This document shows, one piece after another, positions 7,775-33,744 of a stretch of DNA of 36,630 bases (positions within the stretch are counted from its first letter, which is position 1; each line of letters opens with the position of its first letter). Position numbers and translations under genes: made by a program. Origin of the DNA: Bacteriovoracaceae bacterium (lineage in GTDB: Bacteria; Bdellovibrionota; UBA2394); assembly GCA_028287765.1 (NCBI GenBank), contig JAQBPA010000208.1, forward strand, positions 1 to 36,630. Reading direction: 5' to 3'. The notes below the pieces were generated by a model. It was given only the letters and a program-made list of their open reading frames with translations. It was not told the origin of the DNA and made no database searches.

Positions 7775-9383
7775 TCGCTCTCCTCTTAACACCGTAAGAA
7801 TGACTTGTCTCAGACCGGACATCTTCTGGAGTTTTATCTTCTCGCAATCCAAGGAACGAAGGATGTCTCAGCAAACCCTCGTTTGTTTTTTCGGTGAAAT
7901 AAATCTGCGCGACGAGTTTTGGTTTTACCCAGTGCGCAGTTTTTTCAGACGGGGGATTCTTAAAGGGACTCTTCGAAACGGTAAGGAGATCCAGACGCTT
8001 TCTTAAATTCGCTAGCTCCGTTTGATTAAATCCAGTGCCTACTTTGCCGGCATAAATCAGATCATCCTGATCATAAACTCCGAGCAAAAGCGCTCCAAAA
8101 CCAGATCGGCTTCTTTTAGGGTCAGTGAAACCTCCAATTATAAATTCTTCTTCCTGAATGCATTTGCTTTTTAACCAAGAAGACGCTCGTCCAGGAACAT
8201 AAAAACTATTTATTTTTTTTGAAACCACTCCTTCAAGACGATGCTTGCACGCATTTTTTTGCACCTCGTCGCCCCGGCCCAGAAGATGATCCGAAAAGTG
8301 CACTCGAGAAGAATCTAAGGTATCAATCAATTCTCGCAAAAGTTGTTTTCGTTTAATCAGTTCGACTTGAGATAAATCGAATCCATCTAGATAAATCATA
8401 TCAAAAACAAAATAATGAATCTTGGTTTCTTTTTCAGTTTCAAATGCTCTTTGGAGTTCTTGAAAACTCGTTTTTTTTTGAGAATTGAAGGCGACCGCCT
8501 CGCCATCGAGCCATGCTTCTTTCACTCTGAGTGGTTTAAGCTCCTCCTTGAGATTCGGAAAGCGGTGCGTCCAATCATTTCCATTGCGAGTGAAAAATTT
8601 AATTTTACCGTGATCCCATCTCGTCAAAAGTCGATAGCCGTCGAATTTAACTTCATGAAGCCATTCACTTCCTTTAGGGGTTTCATCGACGAGCCTTGCC
8701 AATTGTGGCCAAATTATTTTTGGAAACTGAGATTTTATCGCACCGCTCATGTCTGAGACGGATTCTCTTTTCATTTTTTTGTCCTTTAATTTTTTAGACG
8801 ACCATTGAGCACGATTTTTATCAGAAATTTCAGAAATATCTTTTTGACTGAGAACGCTTAAAGTTTTTTTTTCCGTGATTGAGCCCTTGCCTTCACTTTT
8901 TGCTTCTTTGTCTTTTTCTTTGATCAGGAGCCATGAGTTGTCTCCCTTGAAAGAACGAGATTTTAATTTTATAAGACTCCAACCGCCGCGTAATTTTTTA
9001 CCGTTTAATTTAAATTTTAGTCGTCCCTCTTTGTAAGATTTGACAGGGTCGTTATCTGGAATCCAATATCCACGATCCCAGAGCAGAACTGAGCCGCCTC
9101 CATATTCACCTTCGGGAATTGTGCCTTCAAATTTGCCGTATTCAATCGGATGATCTTCCACATGAATCGCCAATCTTTTTACTTGCGGATCTAAGCTCGG
9201 TCCCTTTGGAACCGCCCAACTCAATAGCACACCGTTTAATTCCAACCTAAAATCATAATGAAGACGTCTCGCTGCGTGTTTCTGAATCACAAAATAAAGT
9301 TTTGAACGCCGCGAAATCTTTTTTCCACTTGGCTCTCGAGTTTTCGAAAAATTTCTCTTTTTTCGATATTCTTTTAAGCCCAT
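7761..9383 (-). CDS. ligD: ATP-dependent DNA ligase LigD (phosphoesterase plus ligase domains)
   Basis: The N-terminal 3'-phosphoesterase domain (about residues 30-155) shows HAARRLHYDFRLE, HVEDHPIEYGKFEG and EGEYGGGSV. A Lys/Glu-rich linker follows. The adenylation domain carries the nucleotidyl motif EVKFDGYR (Lys246), then WLDGEAVAF, LEGVVSKK and SSWLKSK. An OB-fold with YAGKVGTGF and ending near IYFTEKTNEGLLRHP closes the protein. It seals double-strand breaks with Ku and trims 3' ends. The domain order is phosphoesterase-ligase without the polymerase, which is encoded by the next gene. It starts 11 bp after the Ku stop, so the three genes form an NHEJ operon. Confidence 0.95.
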   Translation of the reverse strand: MGLKEYRKKRNFSKTREPSGKKISRRSKLYFVIQKHAARRLHYDFRLELNGVLLSWAVPKGPSLDPQVKRLAIHVEDHPIEYGKFEGTIPEGEYGGGSVLLWDRGYWIPDNDPVKSYKEGRLKFKLNGKKLRGGWSLIKLKSRSFKGDNSWLLIKEKDKEAKSEGKGSITEKKTLSVLSQKDISEISDKNRAQWSSKKLKDKKMKRESVSDMSGAIKSQFPKIIWPQLARLVDETPKGSEWLHEVKFDGYRLLTRWDHGKIKFFTRNGNDWTHRFPNLKEELKPLRVKEAWLDGEAVAFNSQKKTSFQELQRAFETEKETKIHYFVFDMIYLDGFDLSQVELIKRKQLLRELIDTLDSSRVHFSDHLLGRGDEVQKNACKHRLEGVVSKKINSFYVPGRASSWLKSKCIQEEEFIIGGFTDPKRSRSGFGALLLGVYDQDDLIYAGKVGTGFNQTELANLRKRLDLLTVSKSPFKNPPSEKTAHWVKPKLVAQIYFTEKTNEGLLRHPSFLGLREDKTPEDVRSETSHSYGVKRRANEGK

Positions 9384-9394
9384 GGCGATTCCAT

Positions 9395-10231
9395 TTAGGC
9401 CGCCGCTTTTTGTTTTGCATTTCTTTTTGTCGGCTTCTTCTTTGGGTGAGACGAATCTAAACTCTTCCTCAAAAGGCTCATCAAATCGACAGGTTTAGTA
9501 GAACGTGGTTTCTTCTTTTCAAGATCTTTATCAACTTCTTTAGAGGCTTCGATCTCTCCCCTATCAACTCTCTTATCGATAAGTTTTACCAGGTCTTCAT
9601 AATAAGTATCTTTATATGATTCCGCTTTAAATTTTTCTTTCATTTCATCTACGAGCTTTTCGGCCAGCTGAAGCTCCTTTGGCGAGACCTTTGCTGCCGG
9701 AATTTTTTCGTCGAAAGGTCTCAAATCATGTGAAAATCTCAAAATCTCGAGAACAAGACCTTTTTCATTTGGAATAACCGCCGCTAAATGCTCTCGCGTT
9801 CTGAGAACGATTTTTCCGATTCCGACAAGATTCTTATTTTGTAATGTAAGTCGGAGGAGCTCGTAACTTTTTTCGCTATGTTTTTGAGGAATTATAAAAT
9901 AAGGCGTTTCAAATAAAAGCGGATCAATTTCTTTAGCATCCACAAACGAAAGGATCTCAATTTGTTGGGTAGCCTTTACATTTGCTTTTTTAAAATCTTC
10001 ACTGCTGAGAAGAACGTATTGTCCCTTTTCATATTCATAGCCCTTAACGATTTCATCCCAACCAATTTCCTTTCCGGTAGCTTTATTGACGTGAATATAA
10101 CCGACAGGCGCATGATCTCTTCGATCAAGAAGGGTAAAAGACATTTCTTTCTTCTTTTCTGCCGGGCGAAGGCTCACTCCGATATTTACAAGTCCAAAAG
10201 TTAAAGCTCCGTCCCACATCGAACGCGCCAT
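9395..10231 (-). CDS. ku: Ku DNA end-binding protein (NHEJ)
   Basis: ARSMWDGALTFGLVNIGVSLRPA is the bacterial Ku N-terminus. The core beta-barrel and bridge region follow, including GWDEIVKGYEY, YVLLSSEDF, FVDAKEIDPLLF and the helix ending in LVDEMKEKF, a classical Ku landmark. The homodimer encircles DNA ends and recruits LigD. The C-terminal 40 residues are Lys-rich (KKKPTKRNAKQK), as in the extended tails that bind DNA in other bacterial Ku proteins. ATG 10231 (residue 4 of the longest frame) gives the standard MARS start. It is the first gene of the Ku-LigD-polymerase operon. Confidence 0.95.
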   Translation of the reverse strand: MARSMWDGALTFGLVNIGVSLRPAEKKKEMSFTLLDRRDHAPVGYIHVNKATGKEIGWDEIVKGYEYEKGQYVLLSSEDFKKANVKATQQIEILSFVDAKEIDPLLFETPYFIIPQKHSEKSYELLRLTLQNKNLVGIGKIVLRTREHLAAVIPNEKGLVLEILRFSHDLRPFDEKIPAAKVSPKELQLAEKLVDEMKEKFKAESYKDTYYEDLVKLIDKRVDRGEIEASKEVDKDLEKKKPRSTKPVDLMSLLRKSLDSSHPKKKPTKRNAKQKAAA

Positions 10232-10301
10232 GATTTTCAAATCATAGCGAACACTTGCAGAATGGGATCTAACTTAGGGCGATTATATGAAAAGATAGGT
10301 T

Positions 10302-10917: not shown

Positions 10918-11217
10918 ATGAAACGGCCGATCTATAGACATCTCAATCAGAGGCTAGAACTGTTCGGGCTCTCTATACTTGAAATTATTTCACTCTGTTT
11001 TTTATTTTTGATATTTTCCGAACTACTGACATGCGTGAAATACGGGAAAGCCATTGTCTTTGTTGGCATACTCTTGGCGGCCTTCCTACTAAAAATACTT
11101 CATCGATACTTTGACCGACATATTTTAAAAAAGCTCCTGCGATTTATATTACTGCCAGACGGATTTTATCGCAGAGCGATGCTGAATCACCCTTGGACGA
11201 CCCATGAAACAGAATAA
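10918..11217 (+). CDS. VirB3/TraL-like inner-membrane protein
   Basis: This 99-residue protein starts with KRPIYRHLNQRLELFGL, a cytoplasmic basic segment typical of VirB3/TraL proteins. Two adjacent membrane helices (about residues 18-37 and 42-60) follow, then a basic cytoplasmic tail. VirB3 associates with the VirB4 ATPase and the VirB6 channel at the inner membrane. AAAGGATG lies 12 bases before the ATG. The end overlaps the VirB4-like gene by 14 bp, as expected for interacting partners. Length and context agree with the family; primary motifs are weak in this family generally. Confidence 0.75.
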   Translation: MKRPIYRHLNQRLELFGLSILEIISLCFLFLIFSELLTCVKYGKAIVFVGILLAAFLLKILHRYFDRHILKKLLRFILLPDGFYRRAMLNHPWTTHETE

Positions 11218-13540
11218 GGCTTCAAAAAAAAGTGGAACCCTGGAAGATCTCTGCCCGATTGAACGTCAGGCCGAAAGCGGGGTACTTTTTTTTAAAGATG
11301 GCTCGGTCGGATGCATTTTCGAACTTCAAGGGATCGATGCAGATTTTTTTGACGAGCCACTCTGGAATTCGCTCTATGAAAGCTGGCGTCCACTTTTAAA
11401 ACTTTCAAAGGATGAGTCTCTTCAAATTTGTTTTAGTAAGAGAGGCGATTTGGAAGGGATTATTGAAGCGAAGTTTCAAGAAATGGAACTCGTAAAAAAT
11501 ACATTTACCAAAAAGCTCTTTCTCGAACAACTATCAGCCATTTTGCGGGATTTAGACGTGGATTCTCCTAACTTATTTTCCACAAAAATTATTTTGGTTT
11601 TTACAAAAAAAATGCACCGATCAACACCTTCTGTTGAACGAGAAAGAATGGCAGAACAGAAACTTTTTGATTTGGCGCAGGTCTTGGAGGGAAAAGGAAT
11701 ACCCACACTCCCCATAAAAGGTCCAAAACTATGGCGCACTTTAGCCGCTTCGGCGTCGGGCATGGCTTACGTTGCAGCAGATGAAACTCCCGAGGAATGG
11801 CCGGCTGTTTCGATTTCTGCCTATGAAGTGGAAGTCAATGAATCTCTTTTTAGAGCGCTAACACTAAAACAACTTCCTGAACAAAAATCTGAAATGGGAA
11901 TGATTCTCGCACTTCTCAAATTGCCTTACCCTTTTGATCTCACAGTTCGTTTTGAGGGGCGAGACCCCATTCCTCTAAAAAAGACTTTTGAGAGAAAAAA
12001 ACAAGTTCTCTTTGCAATGGCGCGCGGAAAAAGTTCGAGCAGTACGGACTTTGAAGCGCAGTATAGTCAGATCGAAGACGTTCTACGACGCCTGAATGAT
12101 CACAACGACGCCCTTTTAGATATGAAACTTACGATAGGCTTTAGAGCTAAGCGAGAAAATCAAGTTCTGATCCGCCGCGCAATGGCGGAAGTCGTTAATT
12201 CACAGTTCAAACTCGGACATTTAGAATTTGAAGAAAACTCTCTTTCAACATTTGACTGCTTTCTTGAAACAATTCCCTGTTTTAAAGGCAAACTTTTTCA
12301 TTCCGAAACCTTGCTTGCTTCGAATGCTGTCCATTTTCTTCCACTCTACGAATCCTCTCACGGCTCCGCAAGACCTGTTGCAACATTTCGTACACGAACG
12401 GGTGAACTTTTTTCGATTAATCCGGCAGATGAACAATTAGCTAATTTTAACTGGCTTGTCAGTGGCACGAGCGGCTCCGGGAAAAGTTTTTTTATCAATT
12501 CTCTTCTCGCACAAAGCATGTCTCTCAATCCAAGAATTTTTATTCTAGATATTGGAGGATCGTACAATAAACTGACGCGCTATTTGAGCGGTGATTGCAT
12601 CGGACTCGACGTGAAGCAGGGTTTTAAAATGGGCCCGTTTTTCATGGAGCGATCCAAAGATCCGAGTGAAGAGAAACGCCGACGAGAGCATATTCAAATG
12701 ATTTTCGTAGAAATGCTCAGAGACGAAAATAAAATTCCTTCGATTGAGGAACGTGGGTATTTGCACGAAGTTTTAGAACATTTTTTTGAACTCGAAGAAC
12801 TTCCAGAGCATCCTATTAAAGCTGTACAAACTGAGCTTTTAAAAAGATTTCCAGAACAAAGTAGAAAGCTTTATTTGCTCCTCGAGCGCTGGGCTTACCC
12901 TTCATTTTTTGGTGATTTTCTAGATCATCCGCTCCCGCTTAAAAATGAAAACGATATTTTGAACTTTGATCTCAAAGGATTAAGTGAATTTGACGATCTC
13001 TCTCGAGTCGTACAGCTGATTATCTGCGCAAGTCTTTGGAGTCGCATTCGCACCGACAACTCGCGATTTACTTTTATCGTTCTTGATGAAGTTGGATTTT
13101 CTCTTCTTAAGTACGAGCCTCAGTTTGTGGATGAACTCGTATCCACCGTCCGAAAACATAACGCGGGGGTTATTTTAATTGCTCAAGACTTAGAAAAAAT
13201 TACGTCCAATTCTGCTGGAGCGAGTATTCTTCAAAACACTCAAATCAAAGCCATCTTGCAACAAAGAGGAAACCCAAAAAATTACGCTGCTCCTTTGGGG
13301 CTGAACGCTTCTGAAATTAGTGCCATTCAATCTCTCGACCGAAAAAAAGGAAGCTTTAGTGATATCTTTTTAAGAATTGATGATCGAAGAGCCATCATTC
13401 GGTTTATTCCAAACACCTTAGAATATTATTTAGGGACGAGTACCCCCAACGACAACCGAATGCTTGACGAAGCGTTAGCGAAATTTTCTGGAAATTTTCC
13501 AAATCAAATTCTTCAGTTTGTAGAAAGCGTGCTTAAATGA
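11204..13540 (+). CDS. virB4: VirB4/TraC-like type IV secretion ATPase
   Basis: At 778 residues this matches VirB4/TraC/TrbE ATPases in length. Walker A is GTSGSGKSFF near residue 422 and Walker B is FIVLDEVGF near residue 625. A later conserved block has HNAGVILIAQDLEKI and NTQIKAILQQ, the arginine-finger region of these RecA-like hexameric motors. The N-terminal 400 residues form the divergent domain that contacts the inner-membrane complex. The protein powers pilus assembly and substrate transfer and is the most diagnostic member of the cluster. It overlaps the preceding VirB3-like gene by 14 bp and the next gene by 4 bp (ATGA). Confidence 0.93.
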   Translation: MKQNKASKKSGTLEDLCPIERQAESGVLFFKDGSVGCIFELQGIDADFFDEPLWNSLYESWRPLLKLSKDESLQICFSKRGDLEGIIEAKFQEMELVKNTFTKKLFLEQLSAILRDLDVDSPNLFSTKIILVFTKKMHRSTPSVERERMAEQKLFDLAQVLEGKGIPTLPIKGPKLWRTLAASASGMAYVAADETPEEWPAVSISAYEVEVNESLFRALTLKQLPEQKSEMGMILALLKLPYPFDLTVRFEGRDPIPLKKTFERKKQVLFAMARGKSSSSTDFEAQYSQIEDVLRRLNDHNDALLDMKLTIGFRAKRENQVLIRRAMAEVVNSQFKLGHLEFEENSLSTFDCFLETIPCFKGKLFHSETLLASNAVHFLPLYESSHGSARPVATFRTRTGELFSINPADEQLANFNWLVSGTSGSGKSFFINSLLAQSMSLNPRIFILDIGGSYNKLTRYLSGDCIGLDVKQGFKMGPFFMERSKDPSEEKRRREHIQMIFVEMLRDENKIPSIEERGYLHEVLEHFFELEELPEHPIKAVQTELLKRFPEQSRKLYLLLERWAYPSFFGDFLDHPLPLKNENDILNFDLKGLSEFDDLSRVVQLIICASLWSRIRTDNSRFTFIVLDEVGFSLLKYEPQFVDELVSTVRKHNAGVILIAQDLEKITSNSAGASILQNTQIKAILQQRGNPKNYAAPLGLNASEISAIQSLDRKKGSFSDIFLRIDDRRAIIRFIPNTLEYYLGTSTPNDNRMLDEALAKFSGNFPNQILQFVESVLK

Positions 13541-14229
13541 TTTCATTTCTATTCATTTTACTCTCGCAACCTTATTCGATTCTTCCAGGAGTAGGACTGC
13601 CGGGAGGAGACTCGGCTCAGCTTCTCTTGCTCATTGAACAAAGCCAAAAACAAGTAGAAGCACTTCAAAAGATTTTACAAAACTCAGAACTCACTTCCGA
13701 GCAAATGAAGCATGCTCTAGAACTCACGGCCCATCTCAACGAAGGGATCGACTCAAAATTGAATCCCCTCAAAGATACAAAAGAATATCATGCTGCTCTC
13801 ATTGCGATCCAGAATCGTGAAGATTTTGCGGCTACCCATTCTCTGACGGATCAATCGCGTGTTCATCCAGAACTACTCGGCCCTGACGAGTTAAAAAAAA
13901 ATAATCAAAGTTATCTCGATTTCAAGAATTTTCAATCGGGTCTTGTTCGGGCAAATGAGGCGGACATCCAAAACTTTCAAATATTAGAAAAACAAATCGC
14001 CGAATCTCCTCCTGGCGCACTTTCCAGACTTCACGCTGAAGCTGCGTCTAAAAATTGGGAAACTAATTTACGGCTTTCCATGCAATTGACGGAATTGCTA
14101 GATCAGATGCGAAGCGTTCGTGAAGAAATGGTACAGCAACGTGTCCACACTCGAGAGAACTCTACGGACGAAGAAGTCACCATGAAGAATACTCTCGACA
14201 AAATCTTTAGCCTGGAAAAATCCAAATGA
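13537..14229 (+). CDS. VirB5/TrbJ-like coiled-coil protein
   Basis: The 230-residue product has a short hydrophobic N-terminus compatible with export (ISFLFILLSQPYSILPG) followed by almost continuous helical sequence with many Gln, Glu and Leu. This is the pattern of VirB5/TrbJ proteins, minor pilus-tip components located in the periplasm. ATG 13537 overlaps the VirB4 stop by four bases and the end overlaps the next gene by four, giving a translationally coupled chain. The position between VirB4 and VirB6 is exactly where VirB5/TrbJ genes lie. The family is defined poorly by sequence, so context carries much of the call. Confidence 0.65.
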   Translation: MISFLFILLSQPYSILPGVGLPGGDSAQLLLLIEQSQKQVEALQKILQNSELTSEQMKHALELTAHLNEGIDSKLNPLKDTKEYHAALIAIQNREDFAATHSLTDQSRVHPELLGPDELKKNNQSYLDFKNFQSGLVRANEADIQNFQILEKQIAESPPGALSRLHAEAASKNWETNLRLSMQLTELLDQMRSVREEMVQQRVHTRENSTDEEVTMKNTLDKIFSLEKSK

Positions 14230-15755
14230 CGGCAGAGGTTTTTGCACTACCGGAACGCTGGACACAAGCTTTTACTATTTTTCAACATCTTGCGATGGTA
14301 CTCCTTCCGCTCTTTTTTATTATCTCCATTTTTATTTACGCTCTCCAAGCCTTTGAAGGAGTTAGGTTAGAATCGAATGTCTTTCAACTTATTTTAACAA
14401 CAATCCTGATCGCGCTTTGGCCAGAAGTTTTGATGGGCATTAAAACTTTAGTGGATTCATTTAATGATTTTCTTATTCAAGATGTTTTTCATATGTCCAA
14501 TCAGCACAGCTTAATTTCACCTTCCACTTTGGATGAACTCTCTCGTGCGACGGATTTCGGAGATAATTGGTGGAATCTCAAACATTTTGTAAATTTTTTT
14601 ATGGTTCTCATTTTGGTCACGGCAAAATTGATTATCTACGGTCTCTTTTTAATTTTTTTCTTTTTTTATGCAGCTCTAGGACCCCTTGTCATTGCCAGAG
14701 GTGTTTTATCTGAAAATCTTGAAGTCTCGTTAGATCTGATTAAGCAAGTGACCCTTCTCCTTCTCTGGCAGTCTACATTTCTTATCATGGTGGGTCTTGT
14801 CGATAAAACCGTCGGTTCCAGTCCGCATTTTATGTTGGTCGGAGACGACGGATTTTTTTTTAAGGCCGCAAAAGCAATTGGTCTAGCCATACTCATTCTT
14901 TGCGTTCCCACCGTGACAAAAAAGTTTGCCGATTCCATCAGTGCAGCTTTTGTTCCACACGGTTTCAAATTGGGTGGTGCTGTTCTCGGATTCACTGCAC
15001 TCGCCGCCCTCTTACGTGCGCCTGGAAGACTGAGCGGAGCAGCGGTGGCCGCGGAGGCGGAGGGCGGGGGATTAGCCGAAAGTATTAAATGGGGTTCTGA
15101 AAGTGCTTTTCACTTTGTCGAACGTGCAAAACTGCACGATGAGCTTCATAAAGCCGAAACAGAAGCGCGCGAAAGTCAGGAAGCCATTGCCGAAGCAGCT
15201 CATGAACGCGAAATGGATACTGAAATTTTGGAAGAAGAAGCGGAAATAGAAGAAAAAATCCATGAACATATGAAAAGTGAAATGCACGAGAAAGCTCTTA
15301 AGACGCATCTCGAGATAGAAAAAGTTCAGGAAGAAATAGAAGCAAAACACGTTGCAGAAAGTGTCGAGTCAGAAATCAGCCCGCTCCCAGGATTGGATAC
15401 TCTCCACAAAGGTCCGGGAATGGAAACACCCATAAGGAGATTTTTATTTCCTAAAAAAGCACAGATCAAAAAGCCAGCAGAAGAAAACATAGACGACGTC
15501 ACAGCCTTAAGGACCTCAATTGCTTTAAGTCGAGGCGCTGTCGGCTCCGACAAATATAAGGATATGGAAAAACAAGGAATTTCCCACAATGCCTTTATAT
15601 CGGGCGACCCTCAAATTCTCCGCGCTTATAAGGCTAAAATTGATCAATTCAATTCTCGTTTTGGTTGGCTTTACGATGCGACAGGAAAATTTACAGGCCC
15701 CGAACAACTCCGACCAACCTCTCCTAAAAATCCTAATGAAGGAACAGAGACATGA
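14226..15755 (+). CDS. VirB6/TrbL-like polytopic channel protein with coiled-coil C-terminus
   Basis: About residues 20-260 contain six hydrophobic spans, including LLPLFFIISIFIYAL, a long pair within residues 120-160, LLLLWQSTFLIMVGL and AIGLAILILCVPTVTKKF. This is the VirB6/TrbL topology of the inner-membrane channel. After a small-residue-rich segment (GGAVLGFTALAALL) a highly charged region from about 290 to 390 is rich in Glu, His, Lys and Ala and should form a long coiled coil. The last 100 residues are polar. The coiled coil is presumably cytoplasmic or periplasmic and is not part of minimal VirB6. Both ends overlap neighbours by four bases. Confidence 0.75.
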   Translation: MTAEVFALPERWTQAFTIFQHLAMVLLPLFFIISIFIYALQAFEGVRLESNVFQLILTTILIALWPEVLMGIKTLVDSFNDFLIQDVFHMSNQHSLISPSTLDELSRATDFGDNWWNLKHFVNFFMVLILVTAKLIIYGLFLIFFFFYAALGPLVIARGVLSENLEVSLDLIKQVTLLLLWQSTFLIMVGLVDKTVGSSPHFMLVGDDGFFFKAAKAIGLAILILCVPTVTKKFADSISAAFVPHGFKLGGAVLGFTALAALLRAPGRLSGAAVAAEAEGGGLAESIKWGSESAFHFVERAKLHDELHKAETEARESQEAIAEAAHEREMDTEILEEEAEIEEKIHEHMKSEMHEKALKTHLEIEKVQEEIEAKHVAESVESEISPLPGLDTLHKGPGMETPIRRFLFPKKAQIKKPAEENIDDVTALRTSIALSRGAVGSDKYKDMEKQGISHNAFISGDPQILRAYKAKIDQFNSRFGWLYDATGKFTGPEQLRPTSPKNPNEGTET

Positions 15756-16204
15756 ACCTCACTCTCGCCTTTCTTTTTTTAATATCGCTACCACGCGGAG
15801 TCAGAGAAGTGACCGCCACAAGTTGTGAAGTCATTCGTTTGAACGTAGCACTCGGCATGACGTCTCAACTGATCTTTGATGAGCCCCCCACGCTTACTCT
15901 TCATGCAGATGAAGAACATTTTAAAGTAAAGACGACTCCTGAAGCCAAGCGTTCTATTGCGATTATTCCTTTCGTCGACAGTGCAACTCTCGCGCAACTT
16001 TTTCAAAGTAGACGTGAAGAAAATGTGATCATTCCATCTCCTCGAGTTCTGGCCGAGCGTCTTGATGCCGCTTATCACACTAATCTTTTCGTTTTTTTTA
16101 AAAACTCAAATCAACTTATGTTTGAACTTCGTTTTGTTGAGAAGCCGAAGGTCGATTTCATTTTGAATGTGAGACAAGCCTTTCGAAAGGATTGTCAGCT
16201 ATGA
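15752..16204 (+). CDS. short VirB9/TraK-like protein
   Basis: The 150-residue product has a hydrophobic N-terminus and then beta-rich sequence: VIRLNVALGMTSQLIFDEPP resembles the start of the N-terminal domain of VirB9/TrbG/TraK (a strand followed by a GM-T-I-F-P-type turn), and NLFVFFKNSNQLMFELRFVE resembles its later strands. Full VirB9 is about 250-290 residues with a C-terminal domain that binds VirB7 and VirB10 in the outer-membrane core; that domain is absent. Position immediately before a VirB10-like gene, with a four-base overlap, supports the call. Confidence is limited by the short length. Confidence 0.6.
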   Translation: MNLTLAFLFLISLPRGVREVTATSCEVIRLNVALGMTSQLIFDEPPTLTLHADEEHFKVKTTPEAKRSIAIIPFVDSATLAQLFQSRREENVIIPSPRVLAERLDAAYHTNLFVFFKNSNQLMFELRFVEKPKVDFILNVRQAFRKDCQL

Positions 16205-17142
16205 GTCTAAGGGCAATTATTGCAGCGGCTAAACAACGATTTCCGTGGTTCCGAATTGCGGGAATATTTGCCCTGATTTCTCTATTAGCGTTCGTCATTT
16301 ATTTAGCGTGGTTTCATCATCGAAATGCGAATGATGAAGAAAGGCAGCGCGCAGGAAAACAAAAAGTAATCGAAACTTTAATGGCGATTCGAGCAGAAAC
16401 CGGACAGGTCGAAGATAAATTAAAAAAACAGCTTCATGCTTCGCTTTCATCCGACCTACCGAAAGAACGCCGAGCAACGTCCGATCGACAAAGTCGAACA
16501 CCACTGCTTTTAGGATTTAACCCGGGAGCAGGTTTTTCAAAAATTAGTCCTCCGGAAACTCCAGTTTATATTCCATCGGGATCTGTTTTTCGAGCACAGC
16601 TCATGATGCCGATTAAAACATCCATTCAATCAAATTTTATTATGGCTCGTGTCACGAACGAATTCAGAATGGACGCTGTTAGGCGCATCCCCAGAAACAG
16701 CAGACTCATTGGTTCAGCTCAACTAGATCCAATGTTAAAAGGCGTAGTCGTTCGATTTAGAACTTTGGTATCTCCGCGCGGAATTGAATTTCCTGTAAAT
16801 ATTTTAGCATTATCTCCGGAACTTTTCCCTGAACTAGACGGAATTTATTTTACCAATGATCTTGAAACCTACTCATCTGTTCTTGCATTTGGTTTTTTAT
16901 CGGGCTTTGCAGATGCAGCGAGACAGACTCAACCGACCATCATTGGGTCGATTCCTTCGGTAACACTTCAAAATGATGTGCTGAGTGGCGCAAGCACAGC
17001 ATCCTTTCGAGTAGCGGAAGAGCTTTTGCAAGATATACGAAGACGCTCGGTTGAATACATCGTCGTTCCGGCAGGTCAGAGAATTTTTGTCATCTTTGAA
17101 CAAAAGTTTATTTTACAAAATTCTAAACCCATTCCCGATTAG
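16201..17142 (+). CDS. VirB10/TraB/TrbI-like core-complex protein
   Basis: The protein starts with a short basic cytoplasmic segment and one membrane helix (about residues 22-40), followed by a helical linker of about 60 residues. The C-terminal domain (about residues 120-310) has the VirB10 pattern: PVYIPSGSVFRAQLMMPI, IPRNSRLIGSAQLD, LVSPRGIEFPVNILAL, an Ala/Gly-rich antenna-like stretch (VLAFGFLSGFADA), and VEYIVVPAGQRIFVIFEQ. VirB10 spans both membranes and links the energy-transducing inner complex to the outer-membrane pore. ATG 16201 is preferred to 16192 because AAAGGA precedes it and it gives an ATGA overlap with the VirB9-like stop. The Pro-rich linker common in VirB10 is weak here. 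Confidence 0.8.
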   Translation: MSLRAIIAAAKQRFPWFRIAGIFALISLLAFVIYLAWFHHRNANDEERQRAGKQKVIETLMAIRAETGQVEDKLKKQLHASLSSDLPKERRATSDRQSRTPLLLGFNPGAGFSKISPPETPVYIPSGSVFRAQLMMPIKTSIQSNFIMARVTNEFRMDAVRRIPRNSRLIGSAQLDPMLKGVVVRFRTLVSPRGIEFPVNILALSPELFPELDGIYFTNDLETYSSVLAFGFLSGFADAARQTQPTIIGSIPSVTLQNDVLSGASTASFRVAEELLQDIRRRSVEYIVVPAGQRIFVIFEQKFILQNSKPIPD

Positions 17143-17160
17143 AAAAGAGATGAAATATAA

Positions 17161-17805
17161 ATGAACACGAAAATTTTTCTAAAATTAAAAACCGCAATCA
17201 TTTTTATGATGCTTGGTCTTACAGGGTGCGCCACGCATACAAGAGAAATTGTTATTGGAGCACTCGTTGGAAGTGCCGTCGGAGCGGGACTAGGATACAC
17301 GGTCGTCCACAGTGGTGATCATCGCCAATATGTTATACCCAACACCATCACGACAAGCGTTCTTTTTGGATTAGCTACCGCCGGAGTACTGGCATGGCAT
17401 TATCATTCTCTCGATGAACAAAAAGTCGAAATTACGTCAAAATTTAGTCGAAACTGGATGATCGAACAGGAACAAGCGAGAAAATTATCGGGACCATCGG
17501 AATCCACGATCTTCTCCGACGAGGTTTATCCTACCGCTTCCACGATCGGAAAATATTCTCTTAGACTTGATGAGAATACGAGATGGATTTATCCCACTTT
17601 TCGAAAGCGATATCTCCCTCCTGAAAATTCTGGGACTCAACTGCTGTCGGCTCGCTATACCTGGGAAATTTTAAAGCCCGGAACATTTATCACGCGAGAA
17701 CAAGATCCAAGTTACTTTTTTGACAATTCTAAAAGCGAAACACTTCCTCCAGCTAAAATCGTTACTCCTGAAGAAGGACAAAAAAACAAACAACAAAAAC
17801 AATAA
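17161..17805 (+). CDS. lipoprotein with glycine-zipper segment, secretion-cluster associated
   Basis: The N-terminus has a hydrophobic core and the lipobox LTGC at residues 20-23, so the protein should be lipid-anchored after signal peptidase II cleavage. Residues 32-48 form a Gly/Ala-rich segment (GALVGSAVGAGLGYTVV) like glycine-zipper membrane-inserting motifs. A second hydrophobic stretch lies near residues 62-80 (TTSVLFGLATAGVLAW). The remaining 130 residues are polar. It is 18 bp after the VirB10-like gene and 10 bp before another lipoprotein, so it belongs to the same operon. It may play the VirB7/TraV role of the core-complex lipoprotein, but it is larger than VirB7 and shares no motif I can name. 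Confidence 0.7.
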   Translation: MNTKIFLKLKTAIIFMMLGLTGCATHTREIVIGALVGSAVGAGLGYTVVHSGDHRQYVIPNTITTSVLFGLATAGVLAWHYHSLDEQKVEITSKFSRNWMIEQEQARKLSGPSESTIFSDEVYPTASTIGKYSLRLDENTRWIYPTFRKRYLPPENSGTQLLSARYTWEILKPGTFITREQDPSYFFDNSKSETLPPAKIVTPEEGQKNKQQKQ

Positions 17806-17815
17806 GGAATAATTT

Positions 17816-18424
17816 ATGAAACTCTATTTACCATGCTTTTCTTTGATTTTATTAATATCTATGAATGCTTGCGGCACACAGGATTACGATACTGCCAATC
17901 TAGCACAAAAAAATGCGGCAGCTACAATCCCCCCTTCGCCGATTCCTGGTATCCCTCCGACACCAACGCCCGTTCCGACCGATTCTTCAGGTCAATCTTC
18001 TGCCAACCCTGCCGTTGCCTCAAATCAAAAAAGTAAAGGCGTAAAATTTAATGTGTTTGCAGATGGAACAATTGCCCAAGAGGAAGTGATTCAAAATTAC
18101 GATGTTCTGCGAGAGTCCTCTCGCAATCGAATCATCGCAACTTCCGCTATCATAGGTGCAGGTTCTGTGTTTGTTGCAGGATATTTGTTTAATCATGAAC
18201 TCGAAAAATCTTTTAAAGGATTGTGGAAACATCTTGTGAAGTCATCATTTACCGGAGGCGTCTGTGGTCTTGCTCTCGGAGCCTTGGCGGCGAGCGGACT
18301 TCCGAATCAAGTTTTAACACCTGCCCCGACTTTTAAACATCTGCAAAGCCCTCCGATAGTTGTTATTATTTCTGATCAATCAAAAACACCCGCAAGGAGT
18401 TTAGAAGTTGATCATTTAAAATAA
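17816..18424 (+). CDS. Pro-rich lipoprotein, last gene of the VirB-like operon
   Basis: A type II signal peptide is visible with lipobox MNAC at residues 16-19. It is followed by a Pro-rich stretch (PPSPIPGIPPTPTPVPT) that probably forms an extended spacer. Two hydrophobic segments rich in Gly and Ala follow near residues 103-120 and 140-160. The layout parallels the preceding lipoprotein, so the two may act together in the outer-membrane part of the apparatus. The gene starts 10 bp after its neighbour with AAGGAATAATTT in front. Family unknown. Confidence 0.7.
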   Translation: MKLYLPCFSLILLISMNACGTQDYDTANLAQKNAAATIPPSPIPGIPPTPTPVPTDSSGQSSANPAVASNQKSKGVKFNVFADGTIAQEEVIQNYDVLRESSRNRIIATSAIIGAGSVFVAGYLFNHELEKSFKGLWKHLVKSSFTGGVCGLALGALAASGLPNQVLTPAPTFKHLQSPPIVVIISDQSKTPARSLEVDHLK

Positions 18425-19942: not shown

Positions 19943-20560
19943 ATGCCTATTCAACTCAAAAATTTACCCTTTTCGATCGATGCACTTGAACCGTATATAT
20001 CCTCTGAAACCGTGTCATTTCATTACGGAAAGCATCAAAAGGGCTATGTTGAGAAAGCGAATCTTTTAATCTCCCAAAATCCAGCTTACGCGGATTTAAG
20101 TCTCGAGGAGGTCATTCGGCAGAGTCGGCGTAACGAAGATGAGAGTATTTTTAACAATGCGGCACAAGTATGGAACCATGAGTTTTATTGGTCTTGTCTT
20201 TTACCAGTGACGAAACAAAATACGACTTCAAACACGAGCGATCTTCTTCTCAATAGTTTATTCAAAGATTCGTTTCCATCTGTCGATGACTTTAAAGAAG
20301 AGTTCTTTGATAAATGTACTAAACTCTTCGGCTCCGGGTGGGTTTGGCTCGTTAAAAATACAGAAACACATTTACTCTCGCTGATCCCAACCAAAAATGC
20401 CGAGACACCTGCTGCTACAGCGCTCCTCCCTTTACTCACCTGCGATCTTTGGGAACACGCCTATTATATCGACTACCGTAACGATCGAAAAAAATATTTG
20501 GATAATTTTTGGAAGCTCATTAATTGGGAGGCTGTTCAATCGAGAAATCTGAAAAAATAG
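19943..20560 (+). CDS. sodB: iron superoxide dismutase
   Basis: The 205-residue protein carries all four metal ligands: His27 in SFHYGKH, His79 in AAQVWNHEFYW, Asp168 and His172 in CDLWEHAYYIDY. Gln75 in NNAAQVWNH is the residue typical of the iron form, and FGSGWVWLV is also a family mark. It converts superoxide to oxygen and hydrogen peroxide in the cytoplasm; no signal peptide is present. The usual Val before the Asp ligand is Cys here (LLTCDLWEH). It follows the HMA-like gene by 12 bp and overlaps the convergent response regulator by 41 bp. Confidence 0.95.
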   Translation: MPIQLKNLPFSIDALEPYISSETVSFHYGKHQKGYVEKANLLISQNPAYADLSLEEVIRQSRRNEDESIFNNAAQVWNHEFYWSCLLPVTKQNTTSNTSDLLLNSLFKDSFPSVDDFKEEFFDKCTKLFGSGWVWLVKNTETHLLSLIPTKNAETPAATALLPLLTCDLWEHAYYIDYRNDRKKYLDNFWKLINWEAVQSRNLKK

Positions 20561-28345: not shown

Positions 28346-28450
28346 GATTTTAAAACGTCTGGATAAGCTAAAAAGACGTTGATTCATTTTGACATCATGA
28401 TCAGTAAGTTTTTCAAACACTAAAGAAGAAAGATGATGAAAGGAAAAAAT

Positions 28451-28591
28451 ATGAAATCACAATCGAGTAAGAAAGGTAATCAAAAATCGAGTCGTGCAAG
28501 CCACTCGAAGTCGTCTAGTCGGTCTCAATCGGGACGCGGTGGAAGTTCGCAGCCAGCCAGTAATAGCAATAGAAGTTCAACGAGAGATTAA
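28451..28591 (+). CDS. small Ser/Arg/Lys-rich disordered protein (46 aa)
   Basis: ATG 28451 follows AAAGGAAAAAAT, a good ribosome binding site; ATG 28436 is an in-frame alternative. The product is almost only Ser, Lys, Arg, Gln, Asn and Gly (SSKKGNQKSSRASHSKSSSR). It has no hydrophobic residue cluster and a strong positive charge, so it is disordered and possibly nucleic-acid binding. It resembles the 64- and 127-residue disordered proteins in style. A perfect hairpin follows 29 bp after the stop, which supports a discrete short transcript. Confidence 0.55.
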   Translation: MKSQSSKKGNQKSSRASHSKSSSRSQSGRGGSSQPASNSNRSSTRD

Positions 28592-28688: not shown

Positions 28689-28874
28689 ATGTTGAGCTGG
28701 TCATTAATGTTTTTTGTTTTGGCTGTGATTGCCGGAATCTTCGGCTTCACAGGAATTGCGGCCGGTGCGGCGGGAATCGCTAAAGTACTTTTTGTAATTT
28801 TTTTAGTCATATTCCTCGTATCCATGATTGGCGGCGGACTGTCAGGAAGGCGCCCTTCAGGCCCTTCAGTTTAA
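28689..28874 (+). CDS. DUF1328 (YtjA-like) small membrane protein
   Basis: The 61-residue protein has two hydrophobic helices and the DUF1328 pattern: [35 protein letters not shown], then a second helix and GGGLSGRR. YtjA-type proteins are small inner-membrane proteins, often induced by membrane or osmotic stress; their biochemical function is unknown. AAAGGGAAAATAT precedes the ATG. The gene lies between a hairpin and the YihY-AsmA-like fusion gene 61 bp downstream and could be transcribed from a promoter near 28592-28680. Confidence 0.85.
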
Positions 28875-28935: not shown

Positions 28936-30912
28936 ATGGCTAATGAGATGCATGAAAATAGAACGTCTTCCACGTCGAGAAGTACACGGTATCGTCTCCT
29001 TCAATTTTTTGAAAAAATAGGAGGCGACCACCTTCTCACGCAAGCCGCTGCTCTTTCCTATTATGCACTTCTTTCGCTCGCACCGTTATCGGTTGCAGCA
29101 CTGATTGTTTGGACATTTTTTTCTCCACTGCCTTCTGAAGATTTAATGAAATTTGTCGATGTTTGGCTTAGCCCACAAGCTTCGAATGCCATTCGATTAG
29201 TACTTACTCAAACCGAGAGGCCCCATTTACGCGTCTGGGCAAGTAGCCTCACGCTTTTGAGCGTATTCATTTTTGGAACGGCCGTCTTTAATCAACTCCA
29301 ATCCTCATTTGATCTCATATGGAAGAAAAGAACAGCTCCAGTTCGAAATTGGTTTATTCAAAGGCTCTTATCTATTTTGATATTTGGCTGCCTTCTTCTG
29401 CTTTTTTTCTGCTCATCTATTTTTATAATGATCGTCAAAAAATTAGATCCAAGCACACGGACATTTTTAAATCCCATTCTGTCGATCGCCGTGTTTGCAT
29501 TTTTACTCATGGCAATCACCGCTCTTTATCGATGGTTTTCTAAAAAGCAGATTCCCTGGGGGGCGGCCTTTCAAAGCGCCCTGATCGCAACCATTCTATT
29601 TGAATTCGGAAAGATTTTATTTCAAATCTATATTCATAAAGCAGCTGTGAGTTCCGCCTACGGTGCAGCTGGAACCGTGATCGTCTTTCTCTTCTGGATG
29701 TTTTATTCCGCTCTTCTCGTTTTAGTCGGAGCCGAAATTGCTTTTCAAATAAAAGACCACCCATGGGCATGGGCAGAAAAAATACGAAATATTGCCGTTT
29801 ACAGACGACATCGTTATTTATTCTGGAGTCTTGTCATCTTTTTAACAATTGTACTCGCTGCAAGAATACTGGCCCCGAGCCTTATAAAATATGAGATTAA
29901 CCATCAGCTTGATCTTTCGAAAACTTGGAAGGGTCGCATCGAAGATGTTGATTTAGGTGTTTTGAGTGGAACGCTTAAAATACAAAACGGAAATATTTCG
30001 AAAACAACCAAGGATCTCAATCTCAATTTTAGACTCATAGAGATAACTATTGCCTGGCTCGCATTATTAAAAAAAGAAATTCATCTAAAGGCACTCATTT
30101 CTAATCCGCTCATTGTTCTAAATATAGGTGTCTCTCAACCAGGAAAAGAGGCTCAGCCTAAAACTCTGAAAAGGCCTTCGACTTCGTTACAAACCAAAAA
30201 CAAAGTATTAGAGACAAAGCAGGCCTTATCAGAGAAATGGCCTATATATATAGATACATTAAAAGTAAAACATCTAGAATTTGATATTGAAGATTCAAAA
30301 AATCAATCGATTCCAAGCTTTCAAATCAGAGATTTAAATCTGGAAGCTGAAAATATTTGGAATCATATTCAAAAGCAAAGTGGCCCATCGAATATCCGTT
30401 TCTCAGGAGTGACGAGCGGTAATGGACGCTTGACCGGTAAAATTTGGCTTTCCGCCTTTGCGCCAACGCCTAATTTAAAAGCTCAAATCGAACTCAAATC
30501 GCTCGACCTGCGAGCGTTTAATAGTTTTTTTAGAAAAAAGGGAAACTTCGATCTCAAACAAGGAAAATTCGATATGTATATGGAAGCGGCGAGCAAGAAC
30601 TGGAGAGTGGACGGTTATATTAAGCCTATTCTTTCGAATGTTAAATTTATTGATCTGAAAGCAAGAAAGAAGGAATCTTTTTTTCGCAGAGTATGGGAAA
30701 GTCTTCTCCAGCTGATTGCTGGCATTGTAAAAAATCCGCAAACCAAACGCGTCGCAGGAAAAATTCCTTTTTCAGGCAGACTTGATGATCCTTCGACAAG
30801 TGCGTCTTCGGCACTCGTTAGCATTCTAAAAAATGCATTTATTCAGGCTCTTAGCACGGGCTTTGAAGGACACTTAAAGATTGCTCCAACATTTCCGTCA
30901 TCGAAACCTTAA
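28936..30912 (+). CDS. YihY-family membrane protein fused to AsmA/DUF748-like domain
   Basis: Residues about 15-280 are a YihY/UPF0761 (formerly ribonuclease BN) domain: AAALSYYALLSLAP, a run of six membrane helices, IPWGAAFQSALIATILFE, VSSAYGAAGTVIVFLFWMFYSA and LVGAEIAFQ. After a basic loop, another helix (about 292-312, LFWSLVIFLTIVLAARILAP) begins a second module ending near 650. It contains IKYEINHQLDLSKTWKGRIEDVDLGVLSGTLKI, a beta-rich repeat pattern as in DUF748/AsmA-like proteins. The latter span the periplasm and some carry lipids to the outer membrane. YihY normally stands alone at about 290 residues, so this 658-residue fusion is unusual. It is 33 bp upstream of a PerM-family gene. 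Confidence 0.85.
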   Translation: MANEMHENRTSSTSRSTRYRLLQFFEKIGGDHLLTQAAALSYYALLSLAPLSVAALIVWTFFSPLPSEDLMKFVDVWLSPQASNAIRLVLTQTERPHLRVWASSLTLLSVFIFGTAVFNQLQSSFDLIWKKRTAPVRNWFIQRLLSILIFGCLLLLFFCSSIFIMIVKKLDPSTRTFLNPILSIAVFAFLLMAITALYRWFSKKQIPWGAAFQSALIATILFEFGKILFQIYIHKAAVSSAYGAAGTVIVFLFWMFYSALLVLVGAEIAFQIKDHPWAWAEKIRNIAVYRRHRYLFWSLVIFLTIVLAARILAPSLIKYEINHQLDLSKTWKGRIEDVDLGVLSGTLKIQNGNISKTTKDLNLNFRLIEITIAWLALLKKEIHLKALISNPLIVLNIGVSQPGKEAQPKTLKRPSTSLQTKNKVLETKQALSEKWPIYIDTLKVKHLEFDIEDSKNQSIPSFQIRDLNLEAENIWNHIQKQSGPSNIRFSGVTSGNGRLTGKIWLSAFAPTPNLKAQIELKSLDLRAFNSFFRKKGNFDLKQGKFDMYMEAASKNWRVDGYIKPILSNVKFIDLKARKKESFFRRVWESLLQLIAGIVKNPQTKRVAGKIPFSGRLDDPSTSASSALVSILKNAFIQALSTGFEGHLKIAPTFPSSKP

Positions 30913-30948
30913 AGTGACAGACGATAGAGAGGTGCTTATACATACATG

Positions 30949-31986
30949 ATGTCTGATAAAGTAAAACTTGATCTTCCTGCAGTAACAGCTTTAAAAATTT
31001 TTATTTTTGTCGGTGTAGGTTATGCATTCTATCTTCTGCTTCCCTTATTCCTCATTCTATTTTTGGCATGTCTTCTCGCCATAACGCTTGAACCCGTGAC
31101 GAGATGGCTTGAACGTCATGGTTTCAAACGCGGCCTAGCGGTGATATTTATTAGCTTCGTTCTCCTTTCGCTTTTAACTCTTTTCATCGTTTTTGTTCTA
31201 CCAACACTTTTCCATCAATTGGGATCGTTTGTGGAAGACTTTCCCAGTTATCGAGATAAATTGTTCAGCAGATTCCCCGAAGGAACCTTTTTTAATCGCG
31301 CCCTCAGATCGACAATAGCACTCGCGAATGCTCAATCTTTTGGAGAATGGATGACCCACTTAGCAACTGTGGGCCAAGTTACAGCAACCGTTATTTTAAA
31401 ATTGCTTTTTTTATTCGTTATCGCTGTCTATTTATTAGCCGACGGGAAAAGTGCGTATCGTTGGATTCGGCATTTTTTTCCACCTGCTACTCAAAATAAA
31501 ATGGATTCTTCGGCCGATGAAATGATCGATGTCGTCATCGCTTTTACGACGGGTCAGGGGATTTGCTCACTTCTCGCTATATTTTATACCTTTTTAATTT
31601 TGAATATATTTTCTGTGCCTGCTGCCCTTACCTTGGCACTTCTCGCAGGTATTTTTGATATTCTTCCCGTGCTAGGATTTATTTTGTTTAGTATCCCGGC
31701 CATTTTGCTTGCTCTCACCGTATCGGAATACACAGCTTTAATGGTTTTTCTCTTTTATTTGGTCTATCACGGAATCGAAGCATATATTCTCGTTCCTAAA
31801 ATATATGGGAACAAACTTCGTCTCTCGAGCCTAACGGTCTTGCTCACATTGACGGCTGCAGGTCTTATCGCAGGAGTTCCGGGAGCTATAGTGGCCCTTC
31901 CACTAGCCGCTGCCTTTCCGATAGTAGAAAAAATTTGGTTGAAAGATTATCTCGCCTCTCAAAAGGACGCCCCCACAGTAAGATAG
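30949..31986 (+). CDS. AI-2E/PerM-family transporter
   Basis: The 345-residue product has the family's layout of about eight helices: an N-terminal trio (YAFYLLLPLFLILFLACLLAI), EPVTRWLERHGFKRGLAVI, a central soluble segment with FVEDFPSYRDKLFSRFPEG, then the C-terminal helices with DILPVLGFILFSIPAILLAL and IEAYILVPKIYGNKLRLSSL. That last motif is diagnostic for the AI-2E transporter family. Substrates vary and are mostly unknown (autoinducer-2, sodium or protons, other solutes). ATG 30949 is chosen over 30946; the two are adjacent. The end overlaps the convergent Omp85 gene by 28 bp. Confidence 0.92.
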   Translation: MSDKVKLDLPAVTALKIFIFVGVGYAFYLLLPLFLILFLACLLAITLEPVTRWLERHGFKRGLAVIFISFVLLSLLTLFIVFVLPTLFHQLGSFVEDFPSYRDKLFSRFPEGTFFNRALRSTIALANAQSFGEWMTHLATVGQVTATVILKLLFLFVIAVYLLADGKSAYRWIRHFFPPATQNKMDSSADEMIDVVIAFTTGQGICSLLAIFYTFLILNIFSVPAALTLALLAGIFDILPVLGFILFSIPAILLALTVSEYTALMVFLFYLVYHGIEAYILVPKIYGNKLRLSSLTVLLTLTAAGLIAGVPGAIVALPLAAAFPIVEKIWLKDYLASQKDAPTVR

Positions 31987-33242
31987 GTTGCAAAGGCTTT
32001 ATCTTCTATTCCATAGCCCACGTCGTAGCCAACAATAGGTATCGCGATACCTTTAATATAAATTCGAAGTCCCGTTCCAAGTCCATTACGCCAGGCGGAT
32101 CTCGAAAATTGATGCTCGCTAAAATAAATAATTCCAGAATCCCAAAAGCCGATTCCACGCAAAATAAATTTTTTAAAATTAAAAATGGGAAACGTCACTT
32201 CTTCTTGAAGCGTATATTTTGTATCACCGCGAAATTCTCGATAAAGATACCCGCGCAAATTATCTCCTCCGAGCATCAATTCGTAATAAAACGGAAGATC
32301 TCGAGCGAGCTGTATGGATGCACGAGTTGCAAAATTAAATCGGTGGTGCGAAAGACCAAACGCATTTCCAAACCTAAGAATTTGTTTAAAATAATTGAAA
32401 TCGCTGTAAAATCGGCCATCGGAGAGCTGTGATTCGAGTTCTAGTGTCGAACCTTCAGTCAACCCTTCAAAAGTTTCGGTATTTGAATAATTGAATTTTA
32501 ATAATAAGGCATTGTCGTTTCCTTCGATAAGATCAACAGCACGGAGTCCGGGTTCACTGCTCTTTAAGCGCTGCCTTATCCGACGATAATAAGCACCGAT
32601 AGAATTTGAAAAATGCGGACTCCACTGATAACCCGGCAGAAGGGTAAAACCCTTCTCAGTTACGTTCACGCGCCTCACTTCTTTTCGATCTTCGTATTCG
32701 CGCATCTGATCCAAACGAATGAGCCCATCGAAGTCTAAAATAAATGCGGAACTGAACAAAGACGGATCGCGATAGGCAAACACCGCATGACGCGCTTGAT
32801 TTCCATAGTCTGCAAACAGAAGAATTCTTTTAAATCTCCCAAAAAGATTACTCTCCACATAAGTCGCCCCTCCCGAATAAGTCCCTTCAGAAAAAGAAAA
32901 TGAGGGAACCACAAACCAAGATATTTTTTCTTTGACCCAAATAACAATAATCGAGTGCATAGAATCAGAGCCCGGTTTTTGAGATACCCTTACTTCCTCA
33001 AAAATAATATTGGAACCTAATTTTTCTTTTGCTTCTTTGAGAAGGACTTCCGTAATCTCTTGATTAATAAAAAGACCACTCTTCGCTAAAATAGCGTCCG
33101 TTTTTGCTTTTTTATTATTTTGAACCACGATGCTCTCGATTCGCTCTGCTTTCGCCAGAAGAAATTGAGGTATCAAAAAAATAATAAAAAGAGAAAAGAG
33201 TTTAAGAAGGCGAAAATCTTGATTGATGATTTTCAACGCCAT
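31959..33242 (-). CDS. minimal Omp85 (BamA/TamA-superfamily) outer-membrane protein
   Basis: A signal peptide (FIIFLIPQFLLAKA, cleavage near residue 32) is followed by one POTRA-like domain of about 75 residues (IESIVVQNNKKAKTDAILAKS with beta-alpha-alpha-beta-beta order) and a barrel of about 320 residues. GGDNLRGYLYREF (residues 325-337) is the conserved LRGY/VRGF loop motif of Omp85 proteins. The protein ends in Phe (GASF), as outer-membrane barrels do. At 427 residues with a single POTRA it is far shorter than BamA (about 800). The role may be export of lipids or proteins; nothing in the sequence decides. Confidence 0.88.
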   Translation of the reverse strand: MALKIINQDFRLLKLFSLFIIFLIPQFLLAKAERIESIVVQNNKKAKTDAILAKSGLFINQEITEVLLKEAKEKLGSNIIFEEVRVSQKPGSDSMHSIIVIWVKEKISWFVVPSFSFSEGTYSGGATYVESNLFGRFKRILLFADYGNQARHAVFAYRDPSLFSSAFILDFDGLIRLDQMREYEDRKEVRRVNVTEKGFTLLPGYQWSPHFSNSIGAYYRRIRQRLKSSEPGLRAVDLIEGNDNALLLKFNYSNTETFEGLTEGSTLELESQLSDGRFYSDFNYFKQILRFGNAFGLSHHRFNFATRASIQLARDLPFYYELMLGGDNLRGYLYREFRGDTKYTLQEEVTFPIFNFKKFILRGIGFWDSGIIYFSEHQFSRSAWRNGLGTGLRIYIKGIAIPIVGYDVGYGIEDKAFATYLTVGASF

Positions 33243-33255
33243 TCGAAATAAATAT

Positions 33256-33744
33256 TTAAGCGGCTTCTAAAGAGTGTTTAACGGATTCTTCCTCTTTTTC
33301 TACTTCCTGGGCCAAATCAATCGACTCATCCTTCATAATGACTTTTTTCGCCTTTGGAAAAATTTCATCTTCTTCTTCACGGACATGAAGCTTGAAAAGC
33401 TCGCTTAGAACCTCTGCTTTCGCACACCATTCTTCAGTATTCTTGTCGGCGTCTTTTAATTCATCGAGTAGTTGCTTTACGAGACGATGTTCTTCATACG
33501 CTTCAAGAGTCAGATAGTGAGTCATATCGCTTTCTTCGGTTCGAGGATAAAATAGTTTCTCTTCCGCCTGTGTATGAGCTTCGAGTTCACGGTAAATATC
33601 GTTAAAAATACTTTCGCGCTCAGTATCTTCATCGTCAGTCACTAATAATTTTTTAAAAAGGCTTTCCACTTTTCTATGATCTTTCGAAAGCTTTTCAAAA
33701 ACATTTAAATCAGTTGTTTTATGTTCGCTCTTAGCGGTGGCCAT
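33256..33744 (-). CDS. hemerythrin HHE-domain protein
   Basis: The four-helix bundle is visible with iron ligands His23 (KDHRKVESLF), His57 and Glu61 (EAHTQAEEKLFYPR), His86 (YEEHRLVKQ), His120 and Glu124 (LHVREEEDEIFPKAKK). These repeat the H-HxxxE pattern of HHE proteins. The domain binds a di-iron centre and in bacteria contributes to oxygen, nitric-oxide or peroxide sensing or storage. AAGGAGAACACT precedes the ATG. The gene is only 13 bp after the Omp85 start region but is oriented in the same direction (minus), so it may lead that transcript. An element-like inverted repeat lies 97 bp upstream. Confidence 0.92.
   Translation of the reverse strand: MATAKSEHKTTDLNVFEKLSKDHRKVESLFKKLLVTDDEDTERESIFNDIYRELEAHTQAEEKLFYPRTEESDMTHYLTLEAYEEHRLVKQLLDELKDADKNTEEWCAKAEVLSELFKLHVREEEDEIFPKAKKVIMKDESIDLAQEVEKEEESVKHSLEAA

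Follow-up and report, generated by a model that had tools for sequence, protein, structure and literature searches.

A YihY–AsmA-like fusion protein from a Bacteriovoracaceae bacterium suggests a link between YihY proteins and AsmA-like lipid-transfer proteins

Genes and domains at the locus

The stretch of DNA analysed here (the window; 36,630 nucleotides from a Bacteriovoracaceae bacterium) contains a single open frame in which a YihY/BrkB membrane domain is followed by an AsmA-like (DUF748) domain (Table 1). Both domains score above their Pfam cut-offs in this one frame, so that the fusion claimed in a first-pass annotation of the sequence is confirmed: PF03631 (BrkB/YihY) is matched with 127.9 bits against a gathering cut-off of 33.7 (E 7e-37; profile positions 3-256 of 259 covered), while PF05359 (DUF748, AsmA clan) is matched in the C-terminal half with 69.8 bits against a cut-off of 50 (E 1.8e-19), the best stretch being residues 423-553 and only part of the 1037-position profile being covered. 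The protein also scores just above the cut-off of the NCBIfam model TIGR00765 (yihY_not_rbn); the name ribonuclease BN for the YihY family is regarded as a misassignment.

Table 1. Features of the window, with positions counted from its first letter
Feature	Positions	Strand	Evidence
BON-domain protein	2372-2950	+	
Non-homologous end-joining set: Ku, LigD ligase/phosphoesterase, separate LigD primase-polymerase gene	6881-10240	-	
Conjugation or type IV secretion-like cluster: TraG/VirB4-type P-loop ATPase, multi-pass protein, TrbI-like protein	11204-18424	+	
Fe/Mn superoxide dismutase	19943-20560	+	
Ser/Lys-rich 52-residue open reading frame, before the fusion gene	28433-28591	+	no Pfam family
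DUF1328 small membrane protein, 61 residues, 61 bp upstream of the fusion gene	28689-28874	+	PF07043, E 2.9e-14
YihY–AsmA-like fusion gene, 658 residues	28936-30912	+	single open frame, ATG start
YihY/BrkB domain, residues 31-273, six membrane helices, N-terminus predicted cytoplasmic	29026-29754	+	PF03631, hydropathy, charge
Basic linker, residues 274-298, predicted cytoplasmic, without start codon	29755-29829	+	hydropathy/charge
Seventh membrane helix, core residues 299-317, retained signal anchor of the AsmA-like half	29830-29886	+	hydropathy, model
AsmA-like (DUF748) beta-groove domain, residues 331-635, predicted periplasmic	29926-30840	+	PF05359, modelled strands, Foldseek
AI-2E/PerM-family permease, 33 bp downstream of the fusion gene	30946-31986	+	PF01594, E 5.4e-55
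Short Omp85 protein (427 residues, POTRA-like part and barrel), convergent with the fusion gene	31959-33242	-	
Hemerythrin-like protein, beyond the convergent Omp85 gene	33256-33744	-	NF053874, E 2e-23

According to hydropathy only, six hydrophobic segments with a positive-inside charge pattern precede the linker; helices are present there in the structural model as well. The linker region is basic (six lysines and arginines in residues 267-298), and the seventh hydrophobic segment lies within a helix that spans residues 287-327 in the model. The N-terminus and the linker are thus predicted to be cytoplasmic and the C-terminal half periplasmic, which is the orientation that an AsmA-like domain requires. 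Stand-alone relatives of the C-terminal half start with the same N-terminal membrane helix. Between residues 256 and 342 the frame contains no ATG, GTG or TTG codon, and no separate start for the C-terminal half is hence evident at the joint. While the division into two domains that had been drawn at residue 285 stands, its exact position does not, since the YihY domain ends near residue 273 and is followed by the linker and then by the C-terminal half's own helix. Elsewhere in the window, the two LigD pieces of the end-joining set lie in different frames and overlap by 92 bp.

Predicted fold of the C-terminal half

The AlphaFold2 model of the C-terminal half, built with 27 relatives (mean pLDDT 83.7, pTM 0.76), consists of a long membrane helix and some 13 long strands in antiparallel order, together with further helices. 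The same strands and the same best structural matches (Vps13, Atg2) are obtained with the full-length model (pLDDT 83.7, pTM 0.66). When the C-terminal half was compared with the PDB using Foldseek, the first eight matches were chains of Vps13 (E 2e-6, probability 1.00), LPD-3/BLTP1, Atg2 and TamAB, that is, proteins all tied to bridge-type lipid transfer, with the matches falling on the N-terminal parts of Vps13 and Atg2. The TM-scores are low (0.16-0.32), and the resemblance is therefore local. For the YihY half no convincing fold match was found in the PDB, and a sequence search of solved structures returned no real relative of either half.

Hydrophobicity along the modelled strands alternates more than in shuffled sequences (p 0.0006 overall, not for each strand singly), as is expected if one face of the strands lines a groove. 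Moreover, DUF748 was detected in 27 of the 27 relatives scanned. The model therefore supports assignment of the C-terminal half to the AsmA clan, with a helical anchor followed by a predicted beta groove with a chorein-N-like start. The earlier AsmA-like assignment is borne out by these matches, and the structure prediction proposed along with it yielded a helix and a groove-like array of strands.

Recurrence of the fusion, gene pairs and the YihY tree

An in-frame fusion of the same architecture (644 residues, 45% identity over residues 12-657) is encoded by a member of another genus of the same family (G001), in which it is the only PF03631 protein found in the genome; the joint between the halves can be aligned with that of the window protein. 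A third fusion, with a longer linker, is present in another family, in the Bdellovibrionaceae MAG ACE_BDE1 (G173; locus L053). The assembly of the window genome (G000) is fragmented and 76% complete, so that one might suspect an assembly error or a frameshift to have joined two genes. The fusions in independent genomes have already refuted this explanation, and its probability is vanishingly small.

Two further candidates were discarded. A 654-residue open frame in G089 belongs to a stand-alone YihY protein and merely runs on upstream of it without a stop codon, and a 672-residue frame of a Dokdonella YihY protein carries, as judged by eye, a different kind of C-terminal extension. In the open-access literature, the scope of our search, we found no description of a YihY–AsmA fusion.

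In other genomes the two halves are neighbours rather than one protein. For example, YihY (299 residues) and AsmA-like (404 residues) proteins are encoded in G009 by separate genes with a 3-bp gap. The survey of distribution that the first-pass annotation had called for turned up, among the best 30 loci for the C-terminal domain in 241 genomes of the phylum, three fusions and eight directly adjacent pairs with YihY first; at the other 19 there is no YihY gene within 1.5 kb. Four named contigs add pairs from Pseudobdellovibrio, Bdellovibrio, another Bdellovibrionaceae MAG and, outside the phylum, a Steroidobacter MAG, and adjacency is thus seen in at least 12 genomes besides the fused ones. In most pairs the frames overlap, the shared stretch measuring from a few up to some tens of bases. 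For 43 genes, chance would yield about 0.01 adjacent placements; this is a rough estimate that takes no account of shared ancestry. In a further genome the two genes are divergent and 0.7 kb apart (L133), and in G002, of the same family as the window genome, they lie on different contigs and are apparently unlinked. The C-domain genes of Pseudomonadota are nearly all unpaired with YihY. Ten of the 14 control genomes contain YihY proteins.

A maximum-likelihood tree was built from 61 YihY sequences. Every fused and every paired member falls into one clade of 25 (support 100/99), which makes the link to AsmA-like proteins a feature of a single YihY subfamily. On this tree the fused state requires two changes, located on the starred branches of G000 plus G001 and of G173; most simply, the fusion arose twice, independently. 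Conserved adjacency together with two separate fusions makes the link non-random, and these comparisons suggest a joint function of YihY proteins and AsmA-like lipid-transfer proteins.

Genomic neighbourhood

The PerM-family gene is possibly co-transcribed with the fusion gene, and the 52-residue open reading frame and the DUF1328 gene may possibly form part of a stress island. The hemerythrin-like protein relates to the PA2171 persister-protein model NF053874, with a score far below the cut-off of that model. Similar genes recur near relatives of the C-terminal half: in L236 and L238 the AsmA-like gene has a hemerythrin gene as its neighbour, in L059 one lies close to the pair, and L236 also has CsbD and DUF1328 nearby. 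In G001, genes for a BON protein, a YflT-like protein and the fusion directly follow one another, and DUF1328 and a transglycosylase-associated gene surround this group. Three other, Bdellovibrio-type genomes (L237, L240, L241) have BON, YflT/ActD-like and AsmA-like (DUF748) genes in a row, here with no YihY; this tandem, which spans about 4.9-7.4 kb, is possibly a stress operon. In a pseudomonadote (L180, 2103-8556), YihY, CsbD, Pmp3, a short AsmA-like protein, MscS and AI-2E are encoded within 6 kb.

Counted over all loci, stress-type neighbours are found at 8 of 27 in the phylum (YihY and one false match left out) and at 3 of 21 in Pseudomonadota; of 39 control loci taken from these genomes, one has a listed stress family. 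The false match is an apparent CsbD in L235, to which Pfam assigns another, weak family. Since the seed proteins of this survey came partly from the very loci surveyed, and since the YflT-like matches lie below the Pfam cut-off, the stress context is a lead and not a proof. The window also holds a BON-domain protein and a superoxide dismutase gene at a distance from the fusion gene (Table 1).

Discussion

Our findings raise the question of what a YihY domain and a short AsmA-like groove might do in one polypeptide. We give about an even chance to the proposal that the fusion is a stress-linked lipid-handling unit of the inner membrane, in which YihY would present or equilibrate lipid and the short groove would receive it. 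The six-helix YihY part would then span the inner membrane, its two ends facing the cytoplasm, the basic linker and the seventh helix would carry the chain into the periplasm, and the groove would stand directly on the inner membrane. At the periplasmic leaflet, YihY might equilibrate or present a lipid, be it a phospholipid or a glycolipid of the LPS type, whereupon the groove might shield the acyl chains and hand the lipid to another periplasmic carrier or back to the membrane, possibly as part of a response to envelope or osmotic stress. Of this picture, the fusion, its recurrence, the gene pair and the YihY clade are observed, topology and groove are predicted, and the lipid substrate, the direction of its movement and the role in stress are inferred. 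In favour of such a unit are (i) the domains and the predicted fold, (ii) the two fusion origins and the adjacency of the separate genes, (iii) the alternation in the strands, (iv) the links of YhjD to LPS and (v) the stress context. Against it stand the low TM-scores, the lack of a PDB fold match for the YihY half, the absence of a phenotype for PA2708 of Pseudomonas aeruginosa in the assay used, and the fact that some two thirds of the AsmA-like relatives sampled from the phylum, and nearly all of those in Pseudomonadota, are not beside YihY.

The first-pass annotation had instead proposed that the fusion is part of a bridge from the inner to the outer membrane, together with the neighbouring Omp85 and PerM proteins. 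The AsmA-clan fold and the position of both genes next to the fusion gene speak for this proposal. The periplasmic beta region of YhdP, TamB and YdbH, however, measures about 700 residues or more, which is enough to cross the periplasm (PMC8593681), and the groove region of the fusion, with about 300 residues, falls far short of this length. PA2708 (361 residues, PF05359) has been judged too short for spanning the periplasm; it is dispensable for growth, and its deletion has no effect even in a sensitised strain (PMC10900882). Given the short groove and this precedent, we reject a bridge, except in the case that several molecules stack or pass their load on to another carrier. The window genome, moreover, encodes its own TamB. 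Linkage to an outer-membrane partner, as expected of a bridge, is likewise not conserved: Omp85 relatives are present in all five genomes of the family, but in G001 the relative lies on a different contig from the fusion, and G004 (93% complete) has kept Omp85, yet neither YihY nor this AsmA-like protein was found in it, so that Omp85 is ruled out as a fixed partner. A PerM-family gene is found again close to relatives at two further loci, L055 and L180, but there it stands among stress genes and not in an envelope-spanning set. We consider a bridge very unlikely. Separately, the window genome has two further paralogues of the Omp85 protein (G000:C247:5714-6967 and G000:C260:3360-4397; 69% and 45% identity).

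The same short groove and the stress-gene context would also suit a sensor or regulator, in which the periplasmic AsmA-like domain would respond to lipid packing or to envelope stress and regulate a YihY protein acting as channel or transporter, and this would agree with PA2708 being dispensable for growth in the background that was examined (PMC10900882). We nevertheless deem a sensor unlikely: the fold of the C-terminal half resembles transfer proteins, the retained membrane anchor is like that of carriers, and in the literature covered no AsmA-like protein is reported as a sensor. Quite unlikely, too, is that the halves are merely co-expressed stress proteins of one membrane that share no mechanism, their adjacency and fusion being a matter of co-regulation. 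Many AsmA-like relatives do stand alone in stress islands lacking YihY (L237, L240, L241), and G002 keeps the two genes apparently unlinked, but mere co-expression accords poorly with two independent fusions, with a single YihY clade tied to an AsmA-like partner, and with adjacency far above chance.

The repeated fusion and pairing provide a concrete, testable partner hypothesis for YihY proteins, the function of which is unsettled, and the link addresses the question of which inner-membrane partners load lipid into most AsmA-like proteins. It also points to a class of short AsmA-like proteins whose role, perhaps in stress, would be at the inner membrane and not that of a bridge to the outer one.

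Comparison with known systems

Compared by family and length only, PA2708 is the counterpart of the C-terminal half, being a short PF05359 protein of nearly equal size; unlike the fusion, it is described as a stand-alone protein and has no YihY domain (PMC10900882). YhdP, TamB, YdbH, AsmA and YhjG share with the C-terminal half the Pfam clan and the succession of one membrane anchor and a chorein-N/AsmA beta domain (PMC8593681, PMC4494059), and profile comparison puts DUF748 in one group with TamB and AsmA (PMC4494059). In contrast to the fusion, the AsmA-like proteins of E. coli, of 617-1266 residues, carry no polytopic domain, and the three essential ones are long enough to span the periplasm.

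E. coli YihY and YhjD belong to the same Pfam family (PF03631) as the N-terminal half but are stand-alone proteins; in YhjD, the PF03631 stretch ends within 11 residues of the C-terminus and leaves no room for an AsmA-like part. YhjD is reported to bind LPS, to be recovered together with LptB on purification and to show genetic interactions with LPS transport (PMC3219608). In MG1655, a distance of 1.9 kb separates yhjD from the AsmA gene yhjG, which is encoded on the other strand; yhjE lies in between. Pfam confirms the families of YhjD and YhjG, and YhjG contains a sub-threshold match to DUF748. A C-terminal addition to YihY is also implied by the model PRK04214, 'ribonuclease BN/unknown domain fusion' (NF003256), which matches the window protein in its YihY part only (68.8 bits against a cut-off of 500).

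Vps13, Atg2 and LPD-3/BLTP1, the best structural matches of the C-terminal half, are much longer and cytosolic, and their partner scramblases are separate proteins. By comparison with these eukaryotic bridge proteins and scramblases, one may speculate that YihY proteins are general inner-membrane partners, as loaders or scramblases, of AsmA-like lipid-transfer proteins in diderms, YhjD with YhjG included, and that the fusion exposes this pairing; we hold so broad a role to be doubtful, if conceivable.
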